This document shows positions 1 to 56,338 of a stretch of 64,000 bases of DNA, in pieces; the first letter of the stretch is position 1, and every line of letters starts with the position of its first letter. A model generated the notes under the pieces. That model was given only the letters and a program-made list of their open reading frames with translations. It was not told the DNA's origin and made no database searches. This stretch comes from Clostridiales bacterium CHKCI006 (GTDB lineage: Bacteria; Bacillota_I; Bacilli_A; Erysipelotrichales; Coprobacillaceae), in the NCBI GenBank assembly GCA_900018345.1, contig FCNA01000108.1, forward strand, positions 1 through 64,000, in the 5' to 3' direction. The translations under genes and the position numbers were made by a program.

Positions 1-119
1 TCAGGATTTGACGTTTCTAAATTAACTAAATTAGAATAATCTATTTTTGTTTTTTTCAAACATAATTCAAACTTGTTTTTAGGTTTGTCTTTTTTTATGC
101 AGTTTAGCTTTGTTTTGTT
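1..119 (-). pseudogene. Possible 5' end of a frameshifted gene running off the left edge
   Basis: On the minus strand a strong Shine-Dalgarno (AGGAGGG, about 129-135) stands five bases before a GTG at 117-119. The reading frame from this GTG (MKQNKAKLHKK...) stops after 14 codons. If one A were missing from the run of seven A (90-96), the frame would stay open to the window edge as a lysine- and asparagine-rich protein (DKPKNKFELCLKK then TKIDYSNLVNLETSNP). This fits either a disrupted gene or a slippery-run gene. No family is recognised and only about 35 residues are visible, so this is weakly supported. Confidence 0.25.
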
Positions 120-264
120 TCACACTTTCCCTCCTATCACCTATCATAGTTTTATCATAAGCTTTCCCACTGCAAAAGTACAATACCAATAGATCATTCA
201 GTATAACATACAGTCATACTAATTAGAGAGATCATAAATGCAGGATGCGCATACCAATCACTTA
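120..264. other. AT-rich intergenic stretch, no gene seen
   Basis: Apart from the Shine-Dalgarno at about 129-135 for the edge gene, I see no open frame with a start signal, no RNA fold and no repeat of note here. Confidence 0.5.
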
Positions 265-289
265 CAAAAAAAGTGCTCGGAAGCACTTT
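265..289 (-). terminator. Intrinsic terminator below the aldo/keto reductase remnant
   Basis: An 8-bp stem (AAAGTGCT/AGCACTTT at 270-277 and 282-289) with a four-base loop is followed on the minus strand by a run of T (265-271). It lies about 40 bases past the stop of the aldo/keto reductase remnant, so it is probably that gene's original terminator. Confidence 0.8.
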
Positions 290-325
290 AGGACTCAATA
301 AAAGCACAAGAAAAGAGACAGATCT

Positions 326-632
326 TATTTTTCAAATGTCGCCGCGACATCTTCTTCGCTATTTAATTTCCATGCTAGTAATTGATTGGCAATTGTGTAT
401 GAATCACGAGGATAGTAATCAATGAGCGTTGCTTTCATTGCAGCCTCACTTCCCCATACACATACGCTGTATCAAAATAATTAAAACCAGTCTTCATAAA
501 AGAATCAACCATATACTGGATTTGAGTCAAATCAATATCTCCTATATTGTCTTTTGGTAGACGCATTAAACCATAGCCTAGTTTTGAATTAGATAGCATT
601 ATTCTACTCTCCTTTAAGGGATAATCTGACAA
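326..632 (-). pseudogene. Aldo/keto reductase, frameshifted and truncated remnant
   Basis: The first frame gives the start of an aldo/keto reductase (KLGYGLMRLP, then SFMKTGFNYFDTAYVYG), matching the first beta strand and the FDTA-YG motif with its catalytic Asp and Tyr. Just after YVYG, around 450-458, the frame changes. The other frame continues the same family (SEAAMKATLIDYYPRDSYTI, then ANQLLAWKLNSEEDVAATFEK) until a stop at 326-328. The expected GG at this point is short by one G in a G-run, so a one-base deletion is the simplest cause. The product would end near residue 100 of roughly 300-380, so most of the barrel is missing. It lies beside another broken oxidoreductase, which suggests a decaying operon. 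Confidence 0.8.
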
Positions 633-638
633 TTGTTT

Positions 639-1625
639 CTATATCCGTTGTACTATAACATGCCGACTTGCGAATTGATTGATTTTATCAGCAAATTCAG
701 CCACTTCACGATCTCCACACCCTAAGTCCTTAACAGTATGGGCTAAGTCCATTTCATCAATAAAATCCTGTAAAGCCTTTCCACCAGCCAAAACTATTTC
801 ATTACAGGTTTTATCAACTGGTACAATTCCCATTACCGTTAATGCATATGACCAACCATTAAATATTTAGGCAGGGAAATGATGATTCCATGAGCATATG
901 TGATGCCTAAAGTATCAACGATCAACCTGCCTAACCATGTTGCCTTTTTCACACGTCCTTAGATTCGGTCACAGGTAAGCGCACTCGCCCACATCAGATT
1001 TGCTTGCGCATGATGATCGCGCAGATTTTCTTTTATTTTTCTTAAAGACCTGATCACTATTTGACAGATTGCTTCTAGAAATCATCTTGAATATTACAAA
1101 CCGTCCTTTCAACCAAATACTGCTCCATTGCTTGAACAATGATGATCATTCCATGCTAAGCTGTTAGCTCAAACGGACAACTGTATATCAATTTAGGATC
1201 AAGGATGCTGAAAACCGGATTGGTCTTTATAAAACTACCAATACTACCATGTTCTCCGGTATCCAAACGATTAATCTCACTATTGCCGTCCATCTCACTC
1301 CCACAGCAATCACCTTGGCCATATCGATACGACCTCCTCCACCAACACCAAGAATCAAGTCAGCCTGTAAAACTCTGGCTTTCTTGATTCCCTGATACAG
1401 TAACGATAGGGATGGTTCTGTCACATGTCCTAGCTCCTGATAAACAATCCCGGTATCCTTAAACTGCCTTGTGATGATCTCATAAAGACCAATCTCAAAA
1501 CTACTGTGACCACCATAAACCATGAAGACCTTCTTTCCGTACCGTCGGACCTCTTTAGACAAGTCATGAATCGTTTCTTTGCTAAAAATGATCTTCATTG
1601 GAATTTGATAAATAAAGTTCAGCAT
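639..1625 (-). pseudogene. Iron-containing alcohol dehydrogenase, decayed
   Basis: The minus strand from 1625 encodes the N-terminus of a group III iron-dependent alcohol (butanol) dehydrogenase: FIYQIPMKIIFSKETI, then YGKKVFMVYGG and the nucleotide-binding ADLILGVGGGGRIDMAKVIA (family pattern GGGSxxDxAK; S is G here). Further down, pieces in different frames match the rest of the family: GSIGSFIKTN, FSILDPKLIYSCPFELT, an MEQY segment, NLMWASAL, ITYAHG, and finally the C-terminal helix piece at 639-833 (LAGGKALQDFIDEMDLAHT). Several frameshifts and stops separate these pieces. The full span fits a protein of about 385 residues, so almost the whole gene is present but broken. The original role was probably NAD(P)H-linked aldehyde/alcohol interconversion. 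Confidence 0.8.
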
Positions 1626-2118
1626 ATCGTATCCCTGGTATAATATGTAGTGTAACCAAAAGTAATAAACATTTGACTACTTTCTTTGATTCTTTGTTGA
1701 TGGTTACACTTTAGCATAGAGAAACGACCCGCGATACCCTTCCAGCACATTTTCAAACGCTCTTTACATATGATCCGCATTTGAGGCAATATAATCCCAA
1801 CTGTGTATAATACACTTTTTTTCGACTTGTCTGATTGACCATTGTTTGGTTCCCTTAGTGGTTTTCAGATCCCACGCAAGTGAAAAATGAATTGTTATAT
1901 CATTTAAGTAAACCACGATAAAACGTACTGCTGACCGAGCCAGCATAAAGTCTATATGCTGTTCCAACCTTGTCGACTGTTAACTATTTCTGAACATCTT
2001 ATTTTAGATATTTAAGCTGTCTACCAGACAGAGGGCATACCTGTTCACAGATGGCTTTTTTCTTTATGAAATTCAGCTTTATTTGTGGATATAAAACTCC
2101 CAATCTTCCATTAAAACA
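1626..2118. other. Intergenic region with a long-range inverted repeat and an orphan 67-codon frame
   Basis: The arms GTGTAACCA (1650-1658) and TGGTTACAC (1701-1709) form a perfect 9-bp inverted repeat with starts 51 bp apart, upstream of the broken alcohol dehydrogenase. An open frame of 67 codons (1764-1967, minus strand) starts MEQHIDFMLARSAVR; it resembles no family I recognise and has no convincing ribosome-binding site. It may be a further gene remnant. Nothing else is seen here. Confidence 0.4.
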
Positions 2119-2145
2119 CAAAAAAAGCGCTGATATACAGCGCTT
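2119..2145 (-). terminator. Terminator of the asp23-fakA operon
   Basis: The stem AAGCGCTG/CAGCGCTT (2125-2132, 2138-2145) with a five-base loop is followed by a T-run on the minus strand, 13 bases beyond the fakA stop. Confidence 0.9.
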
Positions 2146-2157
2146 AAACCTCAAGCT

Positions 2158-3795
2158 TTATTCAACACCAATAATGAATGAATAAACAGGTTGTTTTCCG
2201 TCATGAACTTCATATTCAATTTCTAATTCATTTTCAATGAAATCTGTTACGGCTTCTGCTTCTTCACTTGTCACATCTTCACCATAGATCAGCGTTACAA
2301 TTTCAGAATCATCATCGACCAGTCCCTTTAAAACAGCTTTACATGCCTCCACCTTATCAGGGATGCAAGCAACAATTTTCTTTTCGACCAAGGCCATATA
2401 ATCGTTAGCATGGATATCCACACCATCGATATTCGTATCCTTAATAGCGAAAGTAACCTGTCCGGTCTTGACATTCGCGATTGCTTCATTCATCTCATTA
2501 ATGTTTTCTTCCAGATCTGCTTCCGGGTTAAACATAATGCAAGCGGACAATCCTTGAGGAATGCTCTTTGAAGGAATTACAATCACATTGATTTCATCTT
2601 CCAGAACCACCGCAGCCTGCTGAGCAGTCATCACAATATTTGAATTGTTCGGTAAGATAACAACATTATTCGCATTCACTTCACGAATCGCTGCAACAAT
2701 ATCTTCTGTCGATGGGTTCATTGTCTGCCCGCCATTGACCACTTCATCGCAATGCAGCTCCATAAACATATCGCGTACACCATCACCGGCTGCAACAGAA
2801 ATGACCGCCACTTCTTTACGTGGACGTTCAACCGGTTTAGCCGCCTCTTTTTCAATAATGTGGTTATGCTGCTCCTGCATATTTTCGATTTTCAGTTTAA
2901 TAAATTCACCAAAACGTTGACCTAAATTCAAGGCGTTTCCTGGTTTCAAAGTGTGTACATGCACTTTGACGATATCATCATCCTGAACCACAACAATCGA
3001 TTCTCCAGGCAGTTTGGACAGCTCTGTTTTTAAGCGATCTTCCGTAAAGGATTTGCGTTTCTTTGGATCCAGTCGTAAGATAAACTCTGTACAATAACCA
3101 AAGCCCTGCTCTTCCACATCCAAATTGGCGAGGTTCTCTTTCGAACTTTCCTCACCATGGTTCATATCCACTGGCTTGATCTCTTCACCATGTAAACCAG
3201 CTAAGAAGCCCGATAAGATCAATACCAGACCGGCACCCCCGCTGTCCACAACGCCGACTTCTTTTAAAACCGGCAATAACTCAGGTGTATGATCCAATGA
3301 TACCTCTGCTCTTTTCACAAAAAAGGCAAAAACATCTTCAATATCCATTCCTGGTTTAACGTATTGTTTGGTTTCCTCCGTAGACTCACGTATAACAGTT
3401 AAAATGGTTCCTTCCACAGGTTTCATGACAGCACGGTAAGCAATTTCAGCCCCTTTGCTTAAAGCTTCCGATAATTCTTCAGCATTGATTTCCTTTTTGC
3501 CATCAAGCCCCATGGAAAAGCCTCTGAAAATCTGAGAGAGAATGACACCTGAGTTACCACGTGCCCCCATCAGTAATCCCTTAGACAGCTTTTTCGCTAC
3601 TTCTGAAATATCATCCGTCTGCATCTCTTCCACGTCTTTTGCACCGTTTGAAAAAGTCAGGCTCATATTGGTACCCGTGTCTCCATCAGGAACAGGGAAG
3701 ACATTCAAAGCATCAATTTCCGGATAATAATTGTGTAATGTATTGGCACCGCATATGACCATGCGTTGAAAAATCTCGCCGTTAATCGACTTCAT
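2158..3795 (-). CDS. fakA: DAK2-domain fatty acid kinase catalytic subunit (YloV/FakA family)
   Basis: This 545-residue protein has the two-part layout of YloV/FakA. The N-terminal DhaL-like nucleotide-binding domain (about 1-200) carries NVFPVPDGDTGTNMS at about 31-45, whose Asp residues bind Mg-ATP, and a later GARGNSGVILSQ segment. The C-terminal half is the DegV-like/FakA middle and end domain. In the characterised Staphylococcus system FakA phosphorylates fatty acids held by a separate FakB (DegV) protein, feeding acyl-phosphate to phospholipid synthesis; no fakB is in this window. It lies 11 bases after asp23, and the pair shares one promoter and terminator, exactly as yloU-yloV does in B. 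subtilis. Older annotations call it dihydroxyacetone kinase-like; no DHA-binding K subunit is present. Confidence 0.9.
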   Translation of the reverse strand: MKSINGEIFQRMVICGANTLHNYYPEIDALNVFPVPDGDTGTNMSLTFSNGAKDVEEMQTDDISEVAKKLSKGLLMGARGNSGVILSQIFRGFSMGLDGKKEINAEELSEALSKGAEIAYRAVMKPVEGTILTVIRESTEETKQYVKPGMDIEDVFAFFVKRAEVSLDHTPELLPVLKEVGVVDSGGAGLVLILSGFLAGLHGEEIKPVDMNHGEESSKENLANLDVEEQGFGYCTEFILRLDPKKRKSFTEDRLKTELSKLPGESIVVVQDDDIVKVHVHTLKPGNALNLGQRFGEFIKLKIENMQEQHNHIIEKEAAKPVERPRKEVAVISVAAGDGVRDMFMELHCDEVVNGGQTMNPSTEDIVAAIREVNANNVVILPNNSNIVMTAQQAAVVLEDEINVIVIPSKSIPQGLSACIMFNPEADLEENINEMNEAIANVKTGQVTFAIKDTNIDGVDIHANDYMALVEKKIVACIPDKVEACKAVLKGLVDDDSEIVTLIYGEDVTSEEAEAVTDFIENELEIEYEVHDGKQPVYSFIIGVE

Positions 3796-3806
3796 GTTTG
3801 CTCCTC

Positions 3807-4163
3807 CTACTCAATAACACGGACACCTTGAACATAGACATTGATTGCTTCTACTTCTACATCCAAAGCTGTTTCCAGTACATATTTCACTTTCTTTTGA
3901 ACTTCAGATACGATTTCTGAAATCTTCATACCATAACCGACAATAATATACATATCGACAACGATTCCCGTATCCTGGCTGGTTACGATGATCCCGCGCG
4001 CATAGTTTTCTTTTTTTAATAATTCATAAAAACCATCTTTTAATACCTTTTGGCTAGCCATGCCGACAACACCATAACATTCCATCGCAGCGCCGCCCAC
4101 TATGGTGGCAATCACATCATTTGAAATATTGATGCTACCTAATTTTGTATTCTTTTCAAACAT
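3807..4163 (-). CDS. Asp23/Gls24 family protein (YloU)
   Basis: This 118-residue protein starts GSINISNDVIATIVGGAAME and contains the Asp23 family core with GIIVTSQDTGIVVDMYIIVG and VQKKVKYVLE. It is the ordinary size for YloU. There is no signal peptide or membrane segment. Family members are linked to envelope stress and lipid metabolism. It is the first gene of the operon with fakA, from a promoter at 4234-4262. Confidence 0.92.
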   Translation of the reverse strand: MFEKNTKLGSINISNDVIATIVGGAAMECYGVVGMASQKVLKDGFYELLKKENYARGIIVTSQDTGIVVDMYIIVGYGMKISEIVSEVQKKVKYVLETALDVEVEAINVYVQGVRVIE

Positions 4164-21515: not shown

Positions 21516-21605
21516 CTCCTAATTTGATATTCCAAGACTCGCCAAATAAGGCAGACAACTGTCTTTTCACCTTTTTTGAGCGGTTGTAGCTAGAGGTCTA
21601 CAACG
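21516..21605 (-). promoter_or_regulatory. Probable L21 autoregulatory leader
   Basis: About 90 bases of untranslated leader stand between the promoter and rplU. It holds the hairpin GTTGTAGAC...CTACAAC (near 21583-21604) and a second pairing region AGACAGTTGTCT, in the place and general form of the ribosomal protein L21 leader of Bacillota. The assignment rests on position and hairpins; a covariance-model scan was not possible. Confidence 0.55.
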
Positions 21606-29926: not shown

Positions 29927-30133
29927 AAAAAAGACGTCCTCATAAGGACGTCTGGAACGTGGTACCACCTTACTTCGCATCATTGATGCCTCATTACCTT
30001 AACGCGGTCCACGTGTTTACCTACTTCATTTCAATAAACAAGCTCGAGGGCTACCTTCAATAACGGCCTTTATTCCTTTTCAGCAAACGGAACTCTCTAA
30101 GAAAGACGAAGTTATTTACTCCTCCCTGTCAAC
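29927..30133 (-). promoter_or_regulatory. T-box leader, valine specifier (GUA)
   Basis: The leader has the invariant T-box core (AAGGTGGTACCACG, around 29957-29971), an intrinsic terminator (stem AGACGTCCT/AGGACGTCT at 29932-29953 followed by T-run) and an upstream Stem I with AGAGAG. The triplet in the expected specifier position, between GAAG and GCCCTCGAG, is GUA (30052-30054), a valine codon, which matches valS downstream. Uncharged tRNA-Val should stabilise the antiterminator. Confidence 0.92.
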
Positions 30134-30141
30134 GCACCCCC

Positions 30142-38386: not shown

Positions 38387-38399
38387 ACTTGAAAGATGG

Positions 38400-38473
38400 C
38401 GTCCACGGCAGGATTCGAACCTGCGACCGCACGCTTAGAAGGCGTGTGCTCTATCCAGCTGAGCTACGTAGAC
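38400..38473 (-). tRNA. tRNA-Arg(UCU), copy 2
   Basis: 74 nucleotides with a complete cloverleaf: acceptor GTCTACG/CGTGGAC (one G-U pair), discriminator G, T-loop GGTTCGAATCC, anticodon loop CTTCTAA giving anticodon UCU, which reads AGA/AGG. CCA is not encoded. Identical to the next copy. Confidence 0.97.
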
Positions 38474-38518
38474 AATGAAACATTTGACAAGCAAATGTTA
38501 TCATGACTTTAATGATGG

Positions 38519-38592
38519 CGTCCACGGCAGGATTCGAACCTGCGACCGCACGCTTAGAAGGCGTGTGCTCTATCCAGCTGAGCTACGTAGAC
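38519..38592 (-). tRNA. tRNA-Arg(UCU), copy 1
   Basis: Identical in all 74 bases to the neighbouring copy, separated from it by a 45-base spacer. It is first in the transcript, behind a promoter at 38621-38648. Confidence 0.97.
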
Positions 38593-38655: not shown

Positions 38656-39144
38656 TTAATCAATTTTAATTTCTTTTCCATCTTTGATGGATTTAAAAGT
38701 GACTTGAAGCGTTTCAGGCGTCAACTCCAGCACACAATAGCAGGCTGGGCTGCCTCCGCGCGGCAAACGTGTCGAGCCCGGATTGATGATATGGATCCCG
38801 TCAATGACCTCATGACAGGGAATGTGCGTATGACCGCATAAAACGATCTTCGCTGCATATTCTTCCGCCAGAGACAGAAAATAAGCTTCCCTGCCATAAT
38901 ATCCGGCGCGATGTCCATGCGTCACCACAATGCGATGGCCCTCAAGATTGAGTGTGATCTCATTTTTGAGATTCGGATTAAACCAGTCATTATTCCCCCT
39001 GACCGCATAAAAACGATCCAGGATCGGACCATAGGCTTCGCTATCTCCGCAATGAATAAACACATCTGCGTTCTTTTCGTAAGCCAGGACCTGTTCGATC
39101 TGTTCATCATCCCCATGATTATCTGACATAACTGCAACTTTCAT
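38656..39144 (-). CDS. YfcE-family metallophosphoesterase (YsnB-like)
   Basis: 162 residues with all binuclear metal motifs of small calcineurin-like phosphodiesterases: MSDNHGDD, FIHCGDSEA, VRGNNDWF, VVTHGHRAGYY, VLCGHTHIP and NPGSTRLPRGG. It should hydrolyse phosphodiesters in the cytosol; the physiological substrate is unknown. In B. subtilis ysnB ends the racE-ysmB-gerM-rph-ysnA-ysnB stretch; rph and ysnA (rdgB) are missing here. Confidence 0.93.
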   Translation of the reverse strand: MKVAVMSDNHGDDEQIEQVLAYEKNADVFIHCGDSEAYGPILDRFYAVRGNNDWFNPNLKNEITLNLEGHRIVVTHGHRAGYYGREAYFLSLAEEYAAKIVLCGHTHIPCHEVIDGIHIINPGSTRLPRGGSPACYCVLELTPETLQVTFKSIKDGKEIKID

Positions 39145-39199
39145 TTGCTCCCCCTCCTTCTATGTAATCTTATTTTAATGAGTTTTGACGCTAAAAACA

Positions 39200-39228
39200 A
39201 TAAAAAGCCTTCTAAATTAGAAAGCTTT
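39200..39228 (-). terminator. Terminator after gerM
   Basis: The stem AAGCTTTCTAA/TTAGAAGGCTT (with a G-U pair) is followed by a T-run on the minus strand. Confidence 0.8.
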
Positions 39229-40191
39229 CTACATGCGGATGGTATTATAAACGATTTCTGAAACTTTACTGGCCTCTCCGGACCCCAGATCCTCTCCCTG
39301 AACCTGCAAACTGATCTCTTCTACACCCTCCAGATGGCTGAAGGACAGCAGCAGCAGGTCATAGATATCCTGATTAATGGTACTTTCATCTAAGAGAACC
39401 GCACTGTTCAAGTTTACCAGCAAGTGCCCATCTTCCAGGCTGGAGCCTTCCAGCACGACCACATCCTCCAGGCATGAAGCCGTCGTCAGTGTCGAGGTTA
39501 CGCTGACTTCATCAAGAACCTCGTTTAACGTATAAGCAATATCATCGGAGATCTCCAAACGTTTAGAAACAGGGACATATAATTCCTCATTCCCGATCTG
39601 TTTAGCATAATAGACGACCACCGATGTCGTATGGTGCAGATCTCGTGTTGAAGATTCGAAGTTATTGATCCCCAGTTCACGCGTCAATGGCTGCGTCAGG
39701 TCAATTTCTCCTTGGGGGAGCTTTGAGAGCGGGTCGCCGGCCATGGAAAATGTCAAACTGTTGACGCCTTCAAACTGACCGTAGACAAAGACCAGTCCCT
39801 CTAAAAAGCGCAGCTCTTGTTCTCTAGTCACCTGCTCGAGTGCTGAGGAAAAATCCAAATTGAGGTTCCCGTTTTCATCCAGCATCGTGCTTACCAGTTC
39901 CAACTCATCAGGCACGAATGAATGGAGATATTCGGATAGTGACCCCGGGCTCTTCATCAGGCTGAACACCTGTTTGAGATCATCCGAATTCGCTGCATCG
40001 ACCGCAATCTGATAGGTAATCGGAATCAGCATCCTGTCCGCGTCCTCATAAACGATCTGATGATAATTACCGTCACTTTCCACACTGACTGTTTTATCAA
40101 CCTGTGAGGTATTGCGGCCAAAAAGATAGCCACCAAGTGTAATCAGACACAATAAGCAAAACAAGCCATTTTTGATCCATTGTTTTTTCAT
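39229..40191 (-). CDS. gerM: GerM-like membrane protein with two GerMN domains
   Basis: 320 residues: an N-terminal membrane helix (NGLFCLLCLITLGGYLFG) and two GerMN (sporulation/spore germination) domains, roughly 55-170 and 195-310, the second with VYYAKQIGNEELYVPVSKRL and LLVNLNSAVLLDE. In B. subtilis GerM is needed for sporulation and germination and helps the SpoIIIAH-SpoIIQ channel stay in place. It lies next to murI (racE), as in B. subtilis. GGAGG stands ahead of the start. Confidence 0.9.
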   Translation of the reverse strand: MKKQWIKNGLFCLLCLITLGGYLFGRNTSQVDKTVSVESDGNYHQIVYEDADRMLIPITYQIAVDAANSDDLKQVFSLMKSPGSLSEYLHSFVPDELELVSTMLDENGNLNLDFSSALEQVTREQELRFLEGLVFVYGQFEGVNSLTFSMAGDPLSKLPQGEIDLTQPLTRELGINNFESSTRDLHHTTSVVVYYAKQIGNEELYVPVSKRLEISDDIAYTLNEVLDEVSVTSTLTTASCLEDVVVLEGSSLEDGHLLVNLNSAVLLDESTINQDIYDLLLLSFSHLEGVEEISLQVQGEDLGSGEASKVSEIVYNTIRM

Positions 40192-40214
40192 AGCCTACCT
40201 CCTTATTGCATCTT

Positions 40215-40248
40215 ATGTCAAAAGGGATGGCTTTAGACCATCCCTTTC
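40215..40248 (-). terminator. Terminator after murI
   Basis: The stem AAAGGGATGG/CCATCCCTTT (40221-40230, 40238-40247) is strong, but the following T-run on the minus strand is short (TTTTGA). Confidence 0.65.
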
Positions 40249-40250
40249 AC

Positions 40251-41030
40251 TCACTTAGTCAATGGCGGTAAGTAGCGTACATCGTAACCGCGATAATCAA
40301 AGAAAGAACGCGATGAGAGTACAAAACTCTCTAAAGCACCGGTCGTATAGATCTTGGACCGTGCCGTCTTCTTTGATGCAATCCGATTGGCTTGAAGACA
40401 ATATTGATAAACCGCATGCGCCACGGCTTCACTGCTGGAGATCAGCTGTGCGCCCGGATAAAGATGCCCGATCATGTCCTGAATGATTGGATAATGCGTA
40501 CAACCTAGCACGATCTGGTCAAACTGACCCTGCAGCGGCTCCAAAAGTGTCTTCAAATACGCCTCGATCATTGCCTGTGGGGCTGCCTGTTCAATCAAAG
40601 GAACAAGTTTAGGACACGCCAATCCATAGCTGGATGCCCCTATTTTCTGCTGGTAAACACCGCTGGCGATGGTAGCTGCCGTAGCCATCACCAGAACTCT
40701 CTCTTTTTGCGTCTGGCTGACTTTTTCGACCGTTGCATCGATGACCCCAATGATGGTCATCTTGTCAAAGCGCAAACGCAGTTCCTCCAGGACCAGACTG
40801 CTTGTCGTATTACAAGCCATCACCACTAGATCAGTGCCCTGCGTCTGAAAATAAGACAGAATATCTGTCGTATATGCCAGCAGCTCCTGGCGGCTCTTAT
40901 CTCCATAAGGAGAATGGCAGTTATCGCCAATATAAATATATGTTTCATTTGGCATCAAATCAGCTAATTCTTTTAAAACGGTCAGTCCGCCGACACCCGA
41001 ATCAAAGACACCGATTGGACTATTGTTCAT
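40251..41030 (-). CDS. murI: Glutamate racemase
   Basis: 259 residues with the two catalytic cysteines in VMACNTTSS and VLGCTHYP, and the N-terminal IGVFDSGVGGLTVLKEL. It supplies D-glutamate for peptidoglycan, which MurD (encoded at the window's right edge) adds to the precursor. It overlaps the M15-like gene by 11 bases. Confidence 0.97.
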   Translation of the reverse strand: MNNSPIGVFDSGVGGLTVLKELADLMPNETYIYIGDNCHSPYGDKSRQELLAYTTDILSYFQTQGTDLVVMACNTTSSLVLEELRLRFDKMTIIGVIDATVEKVSQTQKERVLVMATAATIASGVYQQKIGASSYGLACPKLVPLIEQAAPQAMIEAYLKTLLEPLQGQFDQIVLGCTHYPIIQDMIGHLYPGAQLISSSEAVAHAVYQYCLQANRIASKKTARSKIYTTGALESFVLSSRSFFDYRGYDVRYLPPLTK

Positions 41031-42252
41031 TTGTTTGTTCTCCTTCCGTTGGCGTAGTTTCTGCTTCCGACTGATCGACAGGCGGATTGAGATACTCCTC
41101 TAAGGTCCAGTTTTCAGCATACATCTGGGCTGCAATTTCTTTTCCCACATAGCGGTAGGTTGTTGCTGAATAAGCATGTCCTGTGACTTCTTCCTTTCCT
41201 TCCGGATAGCGCAGAACAAAACCATACAGATGGGCATTTAACTGTAACCATTGGCTTAATTCGGAATCTGCAAAAGTACTCTCATCCTGACCATACTCCT
41301 GTACATCGATCAACAGTCCCAACTGATATTCACTGCTGCCGCCCCGATTGGTCGTCAGCCCTTTGGCATATTCATTTTCAATGGACTGTGAAGAACGATA
41401 GGCCTGTGTCAGCAAGAGACGATGCTCCGGCAGGCTCGCCAGTGCAGCCTGAACCATTTCTTTATAGTCATGGTAGGCATCCTGACGCATATACGTCAGA
41501 AAATCCAGACGATCAACATCGCTGGCAAGTTCCAGATTGGCCGGAACATAAGTTGAGATCGTATGGGCATCATCCACGATCGTCGTCAAACTATCCGGAT
41601 TTTCCAATAAAGAGATCTCGGCATTATCCACCTTCGCTTTTAAGTAAGCATCGATATCTTCGACCTGATAATGGTAATCGACCCAACGGGCCAGCTGATC
41701 AAGCTTGCTGCGTTCTGTGCCATATTCATCCAAAACATTCAGATGATCAATGATACTTTGAATCGTAGCGAACTGCTGATCATCAATCTTCCCCTGAACT
41801 GACAGGATCAGCTCATAATATTCCAGATTCTCCAGTTTAAAATCAGCGTTATTGAGATAATCGTCGACAAAATCATCATCCAGAAGCCGCGTGATCATCG
41901 TATCCGGACTCGCGTTATCCCGTGTTAGTTTCTCGACCAGGGTATTGGTATGACTGATGACATCCGCTGTATTGTCATACAATCCCTCTGCCTCGATCTG
42001 TTCATAGTATTCCAGATAATGAAGATGGAAATCATCATAAGTTAAAAAGCGTAAAAAGCGATCCATCGGAAAAGAATTTTCAACCAGATAATTCTGTTCT
42101 TCCTCTGTGAGATACTCCTTGATCAATTCTCGGTTTTCGTTGTCAATGCCATTGATGCGGTAAAAACGGTCATACTTAAAATTTAATATCGTAAAGCTGA
42201 TGGCAAAGACAAAGATTACGATCAGGATCATTGCCACTTTCTTCTTCTGCAT
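41020..42252 (-). CDS. Membrane-anchored M15B (VanY-like) pseudopeptidase
   Basis: From the ATG at 42252 (GAGGTG upstream) there are 410 residues: an N-terminal membrane helix (KVAMILIVIFVFAISFTIL), a long helical external region (about 30-270), and a C-terminal domain clearly of the D,D-carboxypeptidase VanY type (LLTQAYRSSQSIENEYAKGL, SSEYQLGLLIDV, YGFVLRYPEGKEEVTG, YRYVG). The metal site is lost. The zinc His of SEHQxG is Tyr309; Asp316 remains; the EPWH that holds the catalytic Glu and second His reads SATT (362-365). A Ser/Thr/Glu-rich tail follows. It sits between gerE and murI, so it is probably a non-catalytic wall-binding or regulatory protein. Confidence 0.8.
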   Translation of the reverse strand: MQKKKVAMILIVIFVFAISFTILNFKYDRFYRINGIDNENRELIKEYLTEEEQNYLVENSFPMDRFLRFLTYDDFHLHYLEYYEQIEAEGLYDNTADVISHTNTLVEKLTRDNASPDTMITRLLDDDFVDDYLNNADFKLENLEYYELILSVQGKIDDQQFATIQSIIDHLNVLDEYGTERSKLDQLARWVDYHYQVEDIDAYLKAKVDNAEISLLENPDSLTTIVDDAHTISTYVPANLELASDVDRLDFLTYMRQDAYHDYKEMVQAALASLPEHRLLLTQAYRSSQSIENEYAKGLTTNRGGSSEYQLGLLIDVQEYGQDESTFADSELSQWLQLNAHLYGFVLRYPEGKEEVTGHAYSATTYRYVGKEIAAQMYAENWTLEEYLNPPVDQSEAETTPTEGEQTNEQ

Positions 42253-42312
42253 CTTTTTCACCTCATTTTTTCCTATTATATACCAATTCCCTGCTTTTGC
42301 CTACTCAAAACC

Positions 42313-42338
42313 TAAAAAAGGATTGGCTAACCAATCCT
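42313..42338 (-). terminator. Terminator after gerE
   Basis: The stem AGGATTGG/CCAATCCT (42319-42338 with a short loop) is followed by a T-run on the minus strand. Confidence 0.85.
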
Positions 42339-42345
42339 ATTTCGA

Positions 42346-42549
42346 TCAGAGCTTCAGCTCATTGAGGCGAATCAGTTCCAGCACAGCCTGGATACGACTG
42401 GCTGCGCCCAGTTTTCCCATCACATTCGAAATGTGATTACGGACCGTTTTCTCACTGATGCCCAGTTCACCGGCAATTATCTGCGTTGTTTTATTATCGA
42501 CAAGTCGAGTAAAAATTTCACGCTCGCGCCGGGTCAATATGGAGTGCAC
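42346..42549 (-). CDS. gerE: GerE, LuxR-type late sporulation regulator
   Basis: 67 residues from a GTG start at 42549 (AGGGGGG seven bases upstream). The whole protein is one LuxR-type helix-turn-helix: LTRREREIFTRLVDNKTTQI, then AGELGISEKTVRNHISNVMG and KLGAASRIQAVLELIRLNEL. It matches B. subtilis GerE almost end to end (that protein is 74 residues), with no receiver domain. GerE is the last regulator of the mother-cell cascade and tunes coat genes. The neighbourhood (uvrC upstream, murI and gerM downstream) is the same as in B. subtilis. Confidence 0.95.
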   Translation of the reverse strand: MHSILTRREREIFTRLVDNKTTQIIAGELGISEKTVRNHISNVMGKLGAASRIQAVLELIRLNELKL

Positions 42550-42597: not shown

Positions 42598-44367
42598 TTA
42601 GCTTTCTTTTAATTTTTGATAGAGGTGATGGGCTACGGTCTGCGGCAGCACTTCGCTTAATTCTTCCTCGCTGGCCTCTTTCATGCGCTTCACGCTGCCA
42701 AAGCGTTTTAGAAGCAGTTTCTTGCGCTTAGGACCTACGCCTTCTACATCATCCAGAATCGAATCCAGCAAAGATTTCGAACGCACCTGACGATGGAAGG
42801 TAATCGCATAGCGATGGACTTCATCCTGCATTCTTGTCAGCAGATAGAAAAGCGGCGTGCGACGATCGATCTCGACGACCTCCCCATCCATATCCAGCAA
42901 GACTGCGGTCTGATGGCGATCGTCCTTGGCCAGACCGCATACGTAAATATTGATATGCAGCATTTCAATGATCTCACGTGCCGCCTTGATCTGCCCCTTT
43001 CCGCCATCGACGATAATGAGATCCGGCTTACGCAGACCATCTGTCATGACACGCAAATAGCGTCGATAGATGATCTCGCGCATGCTGCCATAATCATCCG
43101 GTCCTTCGACCGTCTTGATCTTATATTTGCGATAATCGCTGCGTGATGGTTTGCCATCCACAAAAACAACCATCCCAGCTACCGCATAGCTCCCTTGTAT
43201 ATTGGAGTTATCAAACAGTTCAATCACATGAGGAGTTGGTCGATGCAAAAGACGTCCTAACTGCTCAACGGCCTCAATGGTATTGCGGCGATCCGTCTCC
43301 TGCAAAGCAAATTTCTTTTCCAGCATTTCCTTCGCATTTTCGATCGCCATCTTGACCAGATCCGCCTTATTCCCTTTTTCAGGATGGACCACCTTACATT
43401 CCAGCACACTTTCCAATAGTTCGACATCGACACCAGCAGGCACCAGCAGCTCTTTAGGATACGTATTGGCCCGATAAAAGTCAACGACAAAACGAATGAC
43501 CTCATCTGCTTCTTCATCATATAAGGGCATCAGGTTAAAGTCCCGGGATAACAGCTTACCCTGACGCATGAAGAAGATCTGAATACTGAGATACCCTTTA
43601 TCGACATAAAACCCTAAAATATCCCGGTCGACCTGATCGGCAAACTGCACATGCTGCTTACTGGTAACATGCTCGATATAACGGATCATATCCCGATATT
43701 CCTTCGCCTGTTCAAAGTTTAAGGCTTCACTGGCTTCAGCCATCTTATGATGAAGGTCATCAATCACTTCTTTGACATCCCCTTTGATAAAGCGAGTGAT
43801 CTCTCGGGTGATCTGCTGATAGGTCTCTTCAGAAACCTCATTGACGCATGGCGCCAGACACTGATTCAGCGACGCATAGAGACAGGGCTTCTTAGGGATA
43901 TGATTGCATTTTCTTAAAGGATAGAGCCGATTGAGCAGCTTGAAGGTTTCGCGCGCTGCTGTCGCATCCGGAAAAGGACCAAAATGACGACATTTCTTAT
44001 CCTTGGCATCCCGGACAATACGTAAACGCGGATGTCTTTCTCTGGTTAACTGAATATAGGGATAATAGCTGTTATCCATAAACATGATATTATAACGCGG
44101 ACTGTAATCCTTGATCAGATTAATTTCCAGCAACAACGCTTCTTTTTCGGACTGTGTCACAATATAATCAAAATCAACGATTTCTGATACCAGCTTGGTC
44201 GTCTTATAATTATGAACCCCATTAAAATAAGAAGACACACGATTCTTTAGTTTTTTTGCCTTACCGACATAGATCACTGTCCCCTCCGCATTTTTCATCA
44301 GATAACAGCCTGGCTGTAAAGGCAGAAGGGATAATTTATGTTTGATATACGCTAGATCCTGGGCCAT
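42598..44367 (-). CDS. uvrC: UvrABC endonuclease subunit UvrC
   Basis: 589 residues: an N-terminal GIY-YIG nuclease (PGCYLMKNAEGTVIYVGKAK), a Cys-rich stretch (RKCNHIPKKPCLYASLNQCL, APC), the UVR motif (DLHHKMAEASEALNFEQAKE), an RNase H-like second nuclease (IELFDNSNIQGSYAVAGMVV, then DLIIVDGGKGQ) and a C-terminal double helix-hairpin-helix (VEGVGPKRKKLLLKRFGSVK). It makes both cuts in nucleotide excision repair. It lies 16 bases after mutS2. Confidence 0.98.
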   Translation of the reverse strand: MAQDLAYIKHKLSLLPLQPGCYLMKNAEGTVIYVGKAKKLKNRVSSYFNGVHNYKTTKLVSEIVDFDYIVTQSEKEALLLEINLIKDYSPRYNIMFMDNSYYPYIQLTRERHPRLRIVRDAKDKKCRHFGPFPDATAARETFKLLNRLYPLRKCNHIPKKPCLYASLNQCLAPCVNEVSEETYQQITREITRFIKGDVKEVIDDLHHKMAEASEALNFEQAKEYRDMIRYIEHVTSKQHVQFADQVDRDILGFYVDKGYLSIQIFFMRQGKLLSRDFNLMPLYDEEADEVIRFVVDFYRANTYPKELLVPAGVDVELLESVLECKVVHPEKGNKADLVKMAIENAKEMLEKKFALQETDRRNTIEAVEQLGRLLHRPTPHVIELFDNSNIQGSYAVAGMVVFVDGKPSRSDYRKYKIKTVEGPDDYGSMREIIYRRYLRVMTDGLRKPDLIIVDGGKGQIKAAREIIEMLHINIYVCGLAKDDRHQTAVLLDMDGEVVEIDRRTPLFYLLTRMQDEVHRYAITFHRQVRSKSLLDSILDDVEGVGPKRKKLLLKRFGSVKRMKEASEEELSEVLPQTVAHHLYQKLKES

Positions 44368-55636: not shown

Positions 55637-55845
55637 TAAAAAAAGACATCCTCTAAAGGACGTCTATAACGCGGTACCACCTTTATTCATACTGACGTAT
55701 GCACTCATATCTTAACGCGACTAACGGCACTACCCTCACACTTTCGAATAGGCTACTCCAGAGTGATCTACCTGTATCCATTCGACCCGTTTACACCGAC
55801 CACGAGCTCTCTTGACCCTGTTTACAGGCATATGTCTCCTTCACT
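55637..55845 (-). promoter_or_regulatory. T-box leader, isoleucine specifier (AUC)
   Basis: The conserved AAAGGTGGTACCGCG (55669-55683) stands before a terminator (AGACATCC/GGACGTCT, 55644-55665, T-run 55637-55643). Stem I carries the triplet AUC (55765-55767) in the specifier place, between GGTAG and ACTCTGGAG, an isoleucine codon that fits ileS. AAGAGAGCTCGTGG near 55800-55813 matches the Stem I platform. The 5' end is set approximately. Confidence 0.93.
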
Positions 55846-55849
55846 GTAT

Positions 55850-56338
55850 TTATTTTTTAAGCATATCATCGTTATCGACCATGAGACTGGCATGATCATT
55901 CGACTTACTGCCCTCATTTATTAAATAATATACTTCAGAATTATCGATGGTGTCAAGTAAATCTTGACTCATTTTCTGAACACTGGCTCTAAAAGTTGCC
56001 GCCTGTTCCTTAAAGCCTTCTACTTCGCCACTCAGTGTTCGAACATAATCCAAAGATTCCTTTAAAATCAGATTCGCATTCCGTTTGGCTTTTTCGATGA
56101 GGTCACTGGCCTCTTTTAAAGCCAGACGAGCAATCTCCTCATTGGCTTTCTCATGAATGGATATGCGGTGACTTAAGATCTTATTCTCTTCACGAAGCTT
56201 CGTCACCTCTTCCTGCATGCTGGCAAGCTGTTTTTCCAGGCGTGCCTGACTGCGGTCCAGATCCTCCAGATAGTCATCTACGGCTTCAGGATCATAGCCA
56301 CGAAATTTAATTGGGAAGTCGACGTCTTTCTGTGCCAA
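55850..56338 (-). CDS. divIVA: Cell-pole / division protein DivIVA
   Basis: Started at a TTG (56338), with AGAGGTG six bases upstream, the protein has 162 residues and begins AQKDVDFPIKFRGYDPEAVD, the normal DivIVA length before the GYD motif. The ATG at 56368 would add ten residues and overlap ylmH. The N-terminal membrane-binding segment is followed by long coiled coils (LEKQLASMQEEVTKLREENK, then NANLILKESLDYVRTLSGEV). It marks curved membrane at poles and septa, guides MinCD, and in spore formers helps chromosome capture. Upstream neighbours ylmH and sepF are as in B. subtilis. Confidence 0.93.
   Translation of the reverse strand: MAQKDVDFPIKFRGYDPEAVDDYLEDLDRSQARLEKQLASMQEEVTKLREENKILSHRISIHEKANEEIARLALKEASDLIEKAKRNANLILKESLDYVRTLSGEVEGFKEQAATFRASVQKMSQDLLDTIDNSEVYYLINEGSKSNDHASLMVDNDDMLKK

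Follow-up and report, generated by a model that had tools for sequence, protein, structure and literature searches.

A putative VanY-type pseudopeptidase family with a conserved N-domain at the uvrC-ysnB locus of Erysipelotrichales

The window analysed here, a stretch of 64,000 nucleotides from Clostridiales bacterium CHKCI006 (contig FCNA01000108.1), encodes a membrane-anchored VanY-type protein, here called pseudo-VanY, which is almost certainly non-catalytic in the Coprobacillaceae lineage, as judged from its aligned residues. Its family would be one of pseudopeptidases with a fixed place in Erysipelotrichales, the locus uvrC-(gerE)-X-(murI)-(gerM)-ysnB, X being pseudo-VanY. The explanation that we favour, with modest confidence, is that the protein, as a member of an ancient pseudopeptidase family, is tethered to the membrane and works as a scaffold or regulator in vegetative cells via its N-domain.

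Gene and protein architecture

From its N-terminus onwards, pseudo-VanY consists of a single transmembrane helix, a helical external stretch and a fold of the VanY/LdcB (M15B) type:

41020-42252, reverse strand: pseudo-VanY coding sequence, 410 aa, start ATG42252, open frame intact
42165-42252, reverse strand: N-terminal transmembrane helix (signal anchor), a hydrophobic stretch, helix 2-30 in the AlphaFold model
41905-42180, reverse strand: membrane-proximal helical N-domain (profile A3), the part with the strongest conservation and the hallmark of the locus family
41545-41904, reverse strand: middle helical linker, the most variable part, longer in Coprobacillaceae than in Erysipelotrichaceae
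41140-41493, reverse strand: degenerate VanY (M15B) domain, PF02557 match, residues 257-374 in 413-aa numbering

A GAGGTG Shine-Dalgarno sequence lies 6 nt upstream of ATG42252; an alternative start at GTG42261, which overlaps it, would give 413 aa. The residue numbers of the original prediction fit the ATG start, and its description of an intact frame with an altered site is correct. In a Pfam profile search, the 410-aa product matched VanY (PF02557) over the cut-off with an E-value of 6e-14.

The membrane anchor and the extra external region of about 240 residues that had been described earlier are both present, but the region is not unique to this protein. Homology links its first part to the N-region found in intact VanYs (hhalign of the N-domain against the N-region of one intact VanY, probability 95.6, E 1e-8), and only its middle part is lineage-specific. 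We show that pseudo-VanY originates from a membrane-anchored VanY/LdcB protein of a widespread type.

An AlphaFold model of the window protein, built with 33 sequences, reached a mean pLDDT of 86.6 and mostly exceeded 90 over residues 250-390. The predicted three-dimensional fold is LdcB-like, with LdcB as the best PDB match (4jid_A in Foldseek, E 3.6e-14, TM-score 0.82 on the target), in line with the earlier claim that the fold motifs around the altered site are kept. For the N-domain, searches of Pfam, NCBIfam, PDB sequences and PDB folds returned no significant match.

Loss of the active site in Coprobacillaceae

Four positions or segments of the VanY domain are central to what follows:

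41395-41397, reverse strand: Arg286, equivalent to SpLdcB Arg120 (substrate carboxylate), kept in the window and lost in nearly all relatives
41326-41328, reverse strand: Tyr309, replacing the first zinc His
41305-41307, reverse strand: Asp316, the zinc Asp, kept in the window and absent from most relatives
41158-41169, reverse strand: SATT (362-365), replacing EPWH (catalytic Glu and second zinc His)

BaLdcB (4MPH) served as the reference for the site alignment, in which no gaps interrupt the zinc and catalytic motifs. Its SEHQTGLTMDV corresponds to SEYQLGLLIDV in the window protein, and its AYEPWHIRYVG to AYSATTYRYVG. Thus, the SxHxxxxxxD zinc motif of active VanY/LdcB carboxypeptidases is reduced to Asp316, with Tyr309 in the place of His, and their ExWH is replaced by SATT, where Ser362 stands for the catalytic Glu, Thr364 for Trp and Thr365 for the second zinc His. 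The alignment confirms each of the changes first read from the window, as well as the retention of Asp316. Since Asp occupies this position in only six of the 39 Coprobacillaceae members, Asp316 is a leftover.

The zinc site is intact in none of the 39 Coprobacillaceae members (38 relatives and the window protein) and in all 12 outgroup VanYs. The position of the first zinc His is taken by Phe, Tyr, Ala, Glu, Arg, Ser or other residues, and that of EPWH by DAHI, SPTT, NAYT, SATT, SCNI and others. Many members carry D-A-H or D-P-H where EPWH stood, which could hint that a new catalytic activity or metal site, for example Asp-Ala-His, has replaced the old one. We give this reading a very slight probability: the motif is variable, with SPTT, SATT, NAYT and SCNI in other members, and no invariant cluster of Cys, Ser, His or Asp is present.

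A VanY match was present in each of the 43 same-family genomes searched, and an orthologue, full-length or fragmentary, in 41, including that of the window; the two without an orthologue are G024 and the incomplete G015. The frames are full-length in nearly every genome. In G001 the gene is broken into two fragments, which suggests sequencing errors, because several neighbouring genes of that assembly are likewise split. Nei-Gojobori estimates of dN/dS were about 0.05-0.18 in same-genus pairs drawn from the Coprobacillaceae relatives alone (for instance G030/G031, 0.046; G012/G014, 0.09; G037/G038, 0.09); in more distant pairs dS reaches saturation and the ratio carries little information. Pseudo-VanY is under strong purifying selection in these relatives. 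A recent pseudogene or strain-specific loss drifting to deletion would fit the free variation of the active-site letters among relatives, but it has next to no probability and was rejected on the full-length frames, the absence of a zinc site from all 39 members and the low dN/dS. The original prediction of a selected non-catalytic protein stands on the same counts, with no intact motifs in close relatives and a ratio far from 1.

Mean pairwise column identity in Coprobacillaceae is 0.53 for the N-domain, 0.45 for the VanY domain and 0.34 for the middle part. Full-length members continue to conserve the VanY fold under selection, so it is not ballast.

The N-domain and the orthologues of Erysipelotrichaceae

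The sister family Erysipelotrichaceae has an orthologue of about 340 aa at the same locus, next to uvrC in most of the loci examined, and the N-domain is its hallmark. The N-domain profile matches the window protein (G000) with 133 bits (E 1e-38), a score obtained with the window sequence itself inside the profile. It also finds the locus family across Erysipelotrichales as well as in f10, another family of the class, where the gene again adjoins murI; intact VanYs elsewhere gave weak matches.

The 72 Erysipelotrichaceae members with a VanY domain comprise six with H-D-E-H, 21 with the zinc ligands and no Glu, and 45 that have lost one or more ligands. Glu is mostly replaced by Arg, Gln, Lys, Asp or Asn in the 21 zinc-only members. 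Loci L237, L320, L319, L326 and L330 of this family retain the zinc ligands with the catalytic Glu replaced, often by Arg (HDRH), and members of this kind are candidates for zinc-binding, non-catalytic VanY folds. A complete H-D-E-H without the substrate Arg occurs in the locus-family members L300 (G069, 3153-4079; EPYH) and L314 (G106, 1423-2493; EPWH).

Three g23 genomes encode the N-domain by itself, as a protein of 136-143 aa directly before ysnB. No VanY remnant was found at these three loci, which suggests that the N-domain is the indispensable part. The N-domain family is absent from about half of the sampled Erysipelotrichaceae, and its function is therefore dispensable in those. Genus g23 also holds a second group of dead VanYs (L257, L261, L265), which has another N-region, lies away from uvrC and forms its own clade (SH-aLRT 100).

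In a tree built without the four site columns, the locus family forms one clade (SH-aLRT 98), as does Coprobacillaceae (SH-aLRT 99). We dropped the proposal of several independent zinc losses between large clades, as a single clade of all zinc-less blocks was not rejected (p-AU 0.53). Smaller zinc losses are visible inside the zinc-keeping clade in a quick tree.

The genomes were also compared for possible partners. Co-occurrence with the rod-shape protein MreC was uninformative (22 of 41 genomes with the N-domain and 18 of 39 without it), and presence of the N-domain does not track S11 carboxypeptidases. Alternatively, pseudo-VanY might regulate an active VanY/LdcB paralogue by forming a complex or competing with the cell's own catalytic copies. 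Genomes with pseudo-VanY relatives also encode intact paralogues of about 410 aa that share its architecture, with anchor and N-region, and the genome of the window has two intact VanYs. These two are, however, shorter and lack the long N-region, and the three g23 copies are without a VanY domain that could pair, so that we regard such a partnership as unlikely. Contig C117 of the window's genome carries, at positions 1-3232 (L002), a D-Ala ligase-like gene, an intact 247-aa VanY/VanXY-like gene and an acyltransferase-like membrane protein in a row, an arrangement that appears to resemble a vanG-type cluster.

Decay of the substrate pocket

In SpLdcB, the substrate carboxylate is bridged by Arg120, D-Ala is selected by Gln125 and Ser151, and Glu204 and Trp206 shift upon binding (PMC4087270). 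The window protein retains the equivalents of Arg120 (Arg286) and Ser151 (Ser307), and those of Gln125 and Trp206 are gone. Across the locus family, the equivalents of Arg120, Gln125, Ser151 and Trp206 have decayed together with the catalytic residues. Even the six H-D-E-H members have lost the Arg120 equivalent and carry Val, Ile or Leu in its place; of the Coprobacillaceae inspected, only the window protein has Arg, and G006 has Lys. Near-invariant in the locus family are G308, E311, Q313, L314, G315, W338, G347 and R370-Y371-V372-G373 (413-aa numbering), which look like the framework of the fold. This pattern, together with the loss of Arg120, makes canonical binding of stem peptides unlikely.

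These observations weaken the earlier proposal of a wall-binding protein, a module whose dead cleft would still hold stem peptides and so anchor or sense the wall. The VanY fold appears to be kept in the predicted model, the window copy has Arg286, Ser307 and Asp316 in its cleft, and ligand binding by pseudo-active sites is known from other M15 folds (Hedgehog, PMC11266112). Yet the residues with which LdcB grips the stem peptide are not conserved in the family, the cleft has gained no invariant new polar residue, and the better conserved N-domain stands alone in three genomes where the module is absent altogether. We consider wall binding by the cleft quite unlikely.

A locus of probable vegetative character

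The neighbourhood of pseudo-VanY contains the following features:

42598-44367, reverse strand: uvrC, the constant upstream neighbour in Coprobacillaceae
42346-42549, reverse strand: GerE-like HTH protein, 67 aa, the upstream neighbour
42319-42338, reverse strand: intrinsic terminator downstream of gerE, setting it apart from the pseudo-VanY unit (consensus match only)
42275-42303, reverse strand: sigma-A-like promoter TAGGCA-17-TATAAT, about 22 nt before the ATG (consensus match only)
40251-41030, reverse strand: murI (glutamate racemase), its start overlapping the pseudo-VanY end by 11 nt
38656-39144, reverse strand: ysnB-like phosphoesterase, a common downstream neighbour across the order

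The gene lies between gerE and murI, as had been noted at the outset. uvrC adjoins it in 39 of 39 relatives' loci in Coprobacillaceae, where the commonest order is rnhC-cvpA-mutS2-uvrC-(gerE)-X-(murI)-(gerM)-ysnB; the window locus follows this arrangement, with uvrC upstream and murI, gerM and ysnB downstream. We take its order in 38656-42549, uvrC-gerE-X-murI-gerM-ysnB, to resemble gerE-ysmB-racE-gerM-ysnB of Bacillus subtilis, with X in the place of ysmB. Because a terminator follows gerE and a predicted promoter precedes the ATG, pseudo-VanY and murI probably form a vegetative unit of their own. Elsewhere in the window, two tandem tRNA-Arg(TCT) genes with equal Rfam scores lie 42 nt apart (38397-38473 and 38516-38592, reverse strand), and Rfam also places T-box leaders at 29941-30141 and 55653-55853 (reverse strand) and an L21 leader at 21525-21595.

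The neighbours gerE and murI-gerM had suggested a protein of the spore cortex or germination, and the genome of the window does have both Spo0A and SpoIVA. Both are missing, however, from nine genomes (G010, G011, G018, G019, G025, G026, G029, G030 and G031; in G025 SpoIVA gave a sub-threshold match only) that keep pseudo-VanY at full length in a uvrC-X-ysnB locus without gerE, murI or gerM. We rejected the spore role because the gene persists in these non-sporulating genomes; that it has a sigma-A-like promoter of its own behind the gerE terminator likewise speaks against this role. A function in the spore is thus highly unlikely, and the role of pseudo-VanY is very probably vegetative rather than spore-specific.

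Comparison with known systems and proposed role

LdcB/DacB and VanY (MEROPS M15B; Bacillus LdcB 4JID/4MPH, SpLdcB 4OX5) give the best sequence and fold matches to pseudo-VanY and share its fold and motif order and, in many members, its membrane anchor. Pseudo-VanY differs from them in lacking the zinc ligands, the catalytic Glu and most substrate residues, and in having an extra N-domain and a fixed locus. The nearest fold analogy, without implying membership, is the N-domain of Sonic Hedgehog, an M15-type fold that binds proteins non-catalytically and, like the zinc-only Erysipelotrichaceae members, keeps zinc without the catalytic residue. Unlike pseudo-VanY, Hedgehog retains zinc and is an animal protein that is secreted and lipidated, and its Foldseek match to the window model is weak. 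A review of pseudopeptidases from 2024 has no other M15 entry (PMC11266112).

The nearest working analogy is provided by dead LytM regulators such as DipM, EnvC and NlpD, in mechanism only and not in membership. In EnvC, NlpD, ActS and DipM, too, a wall-peptidase domain lying outside the membrane is catalytically dead (PMC10336132); they differ in being M23 (LAS group) rather than M15 proteins, in being Gram-negative and in having known partners. Profile searches of the window protein found VanY alone and no M23 LytM domain. BA0330 and BA0331 of Bacillus anthracis are reported to be Gram-positive wall pseudoenzymes with an envelope role, polysaccharide-deacetylase-like lipoproteins without activity whose fold is unrelated to that of pseudo-VanY (PMC4505593). 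Our literature searches on inactive VanY or Coprobacillaceae wall proteins found no description of the pseudo-VanY family and no named bacterial M15 pseudopeptidase family.

We propose that pseudo-VanY would no longer cut or grip stem peptides. Tethered outside the membrane, it would bind other proteins chiefly via the helical N-domain, and its dead VanY fold may offer a second docking surface, as the dead LytM domains of EnvC, NlpD and DipM do for wall hydrolases. Its role would then lie in vegetative envelope growth or division and not in the spore. That the N-domain is the centre of a scaffold or regulator of wall enzymes has, in our estimate, an even chance. More tentatively, the family may represent a bacterial case akin to Hedgehog, in which an M15 wall peptidase that stayed at a single locus throughout the order has turned into a non-enzymatic membrane-tethered adaptor, with all stages living and the N-domain carrying the function.

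The N-domain, for which Pfam, NCBIfam and the PDB gave no significant match, appears to be undescribed. Pseudo-VanY resembles the D-Ala carboxypeptidase models of annotation pipelines, although it is very unlikely to be active in the Coprobacillaceae lineage, so that an envelope protein conserved in common gut bacteria goes unnoticed. The living series from intact through zinc-only and zinc-less to domain-less members makes the order in which the chemistry was lost, and the function that replaced it, testable at a single locus.
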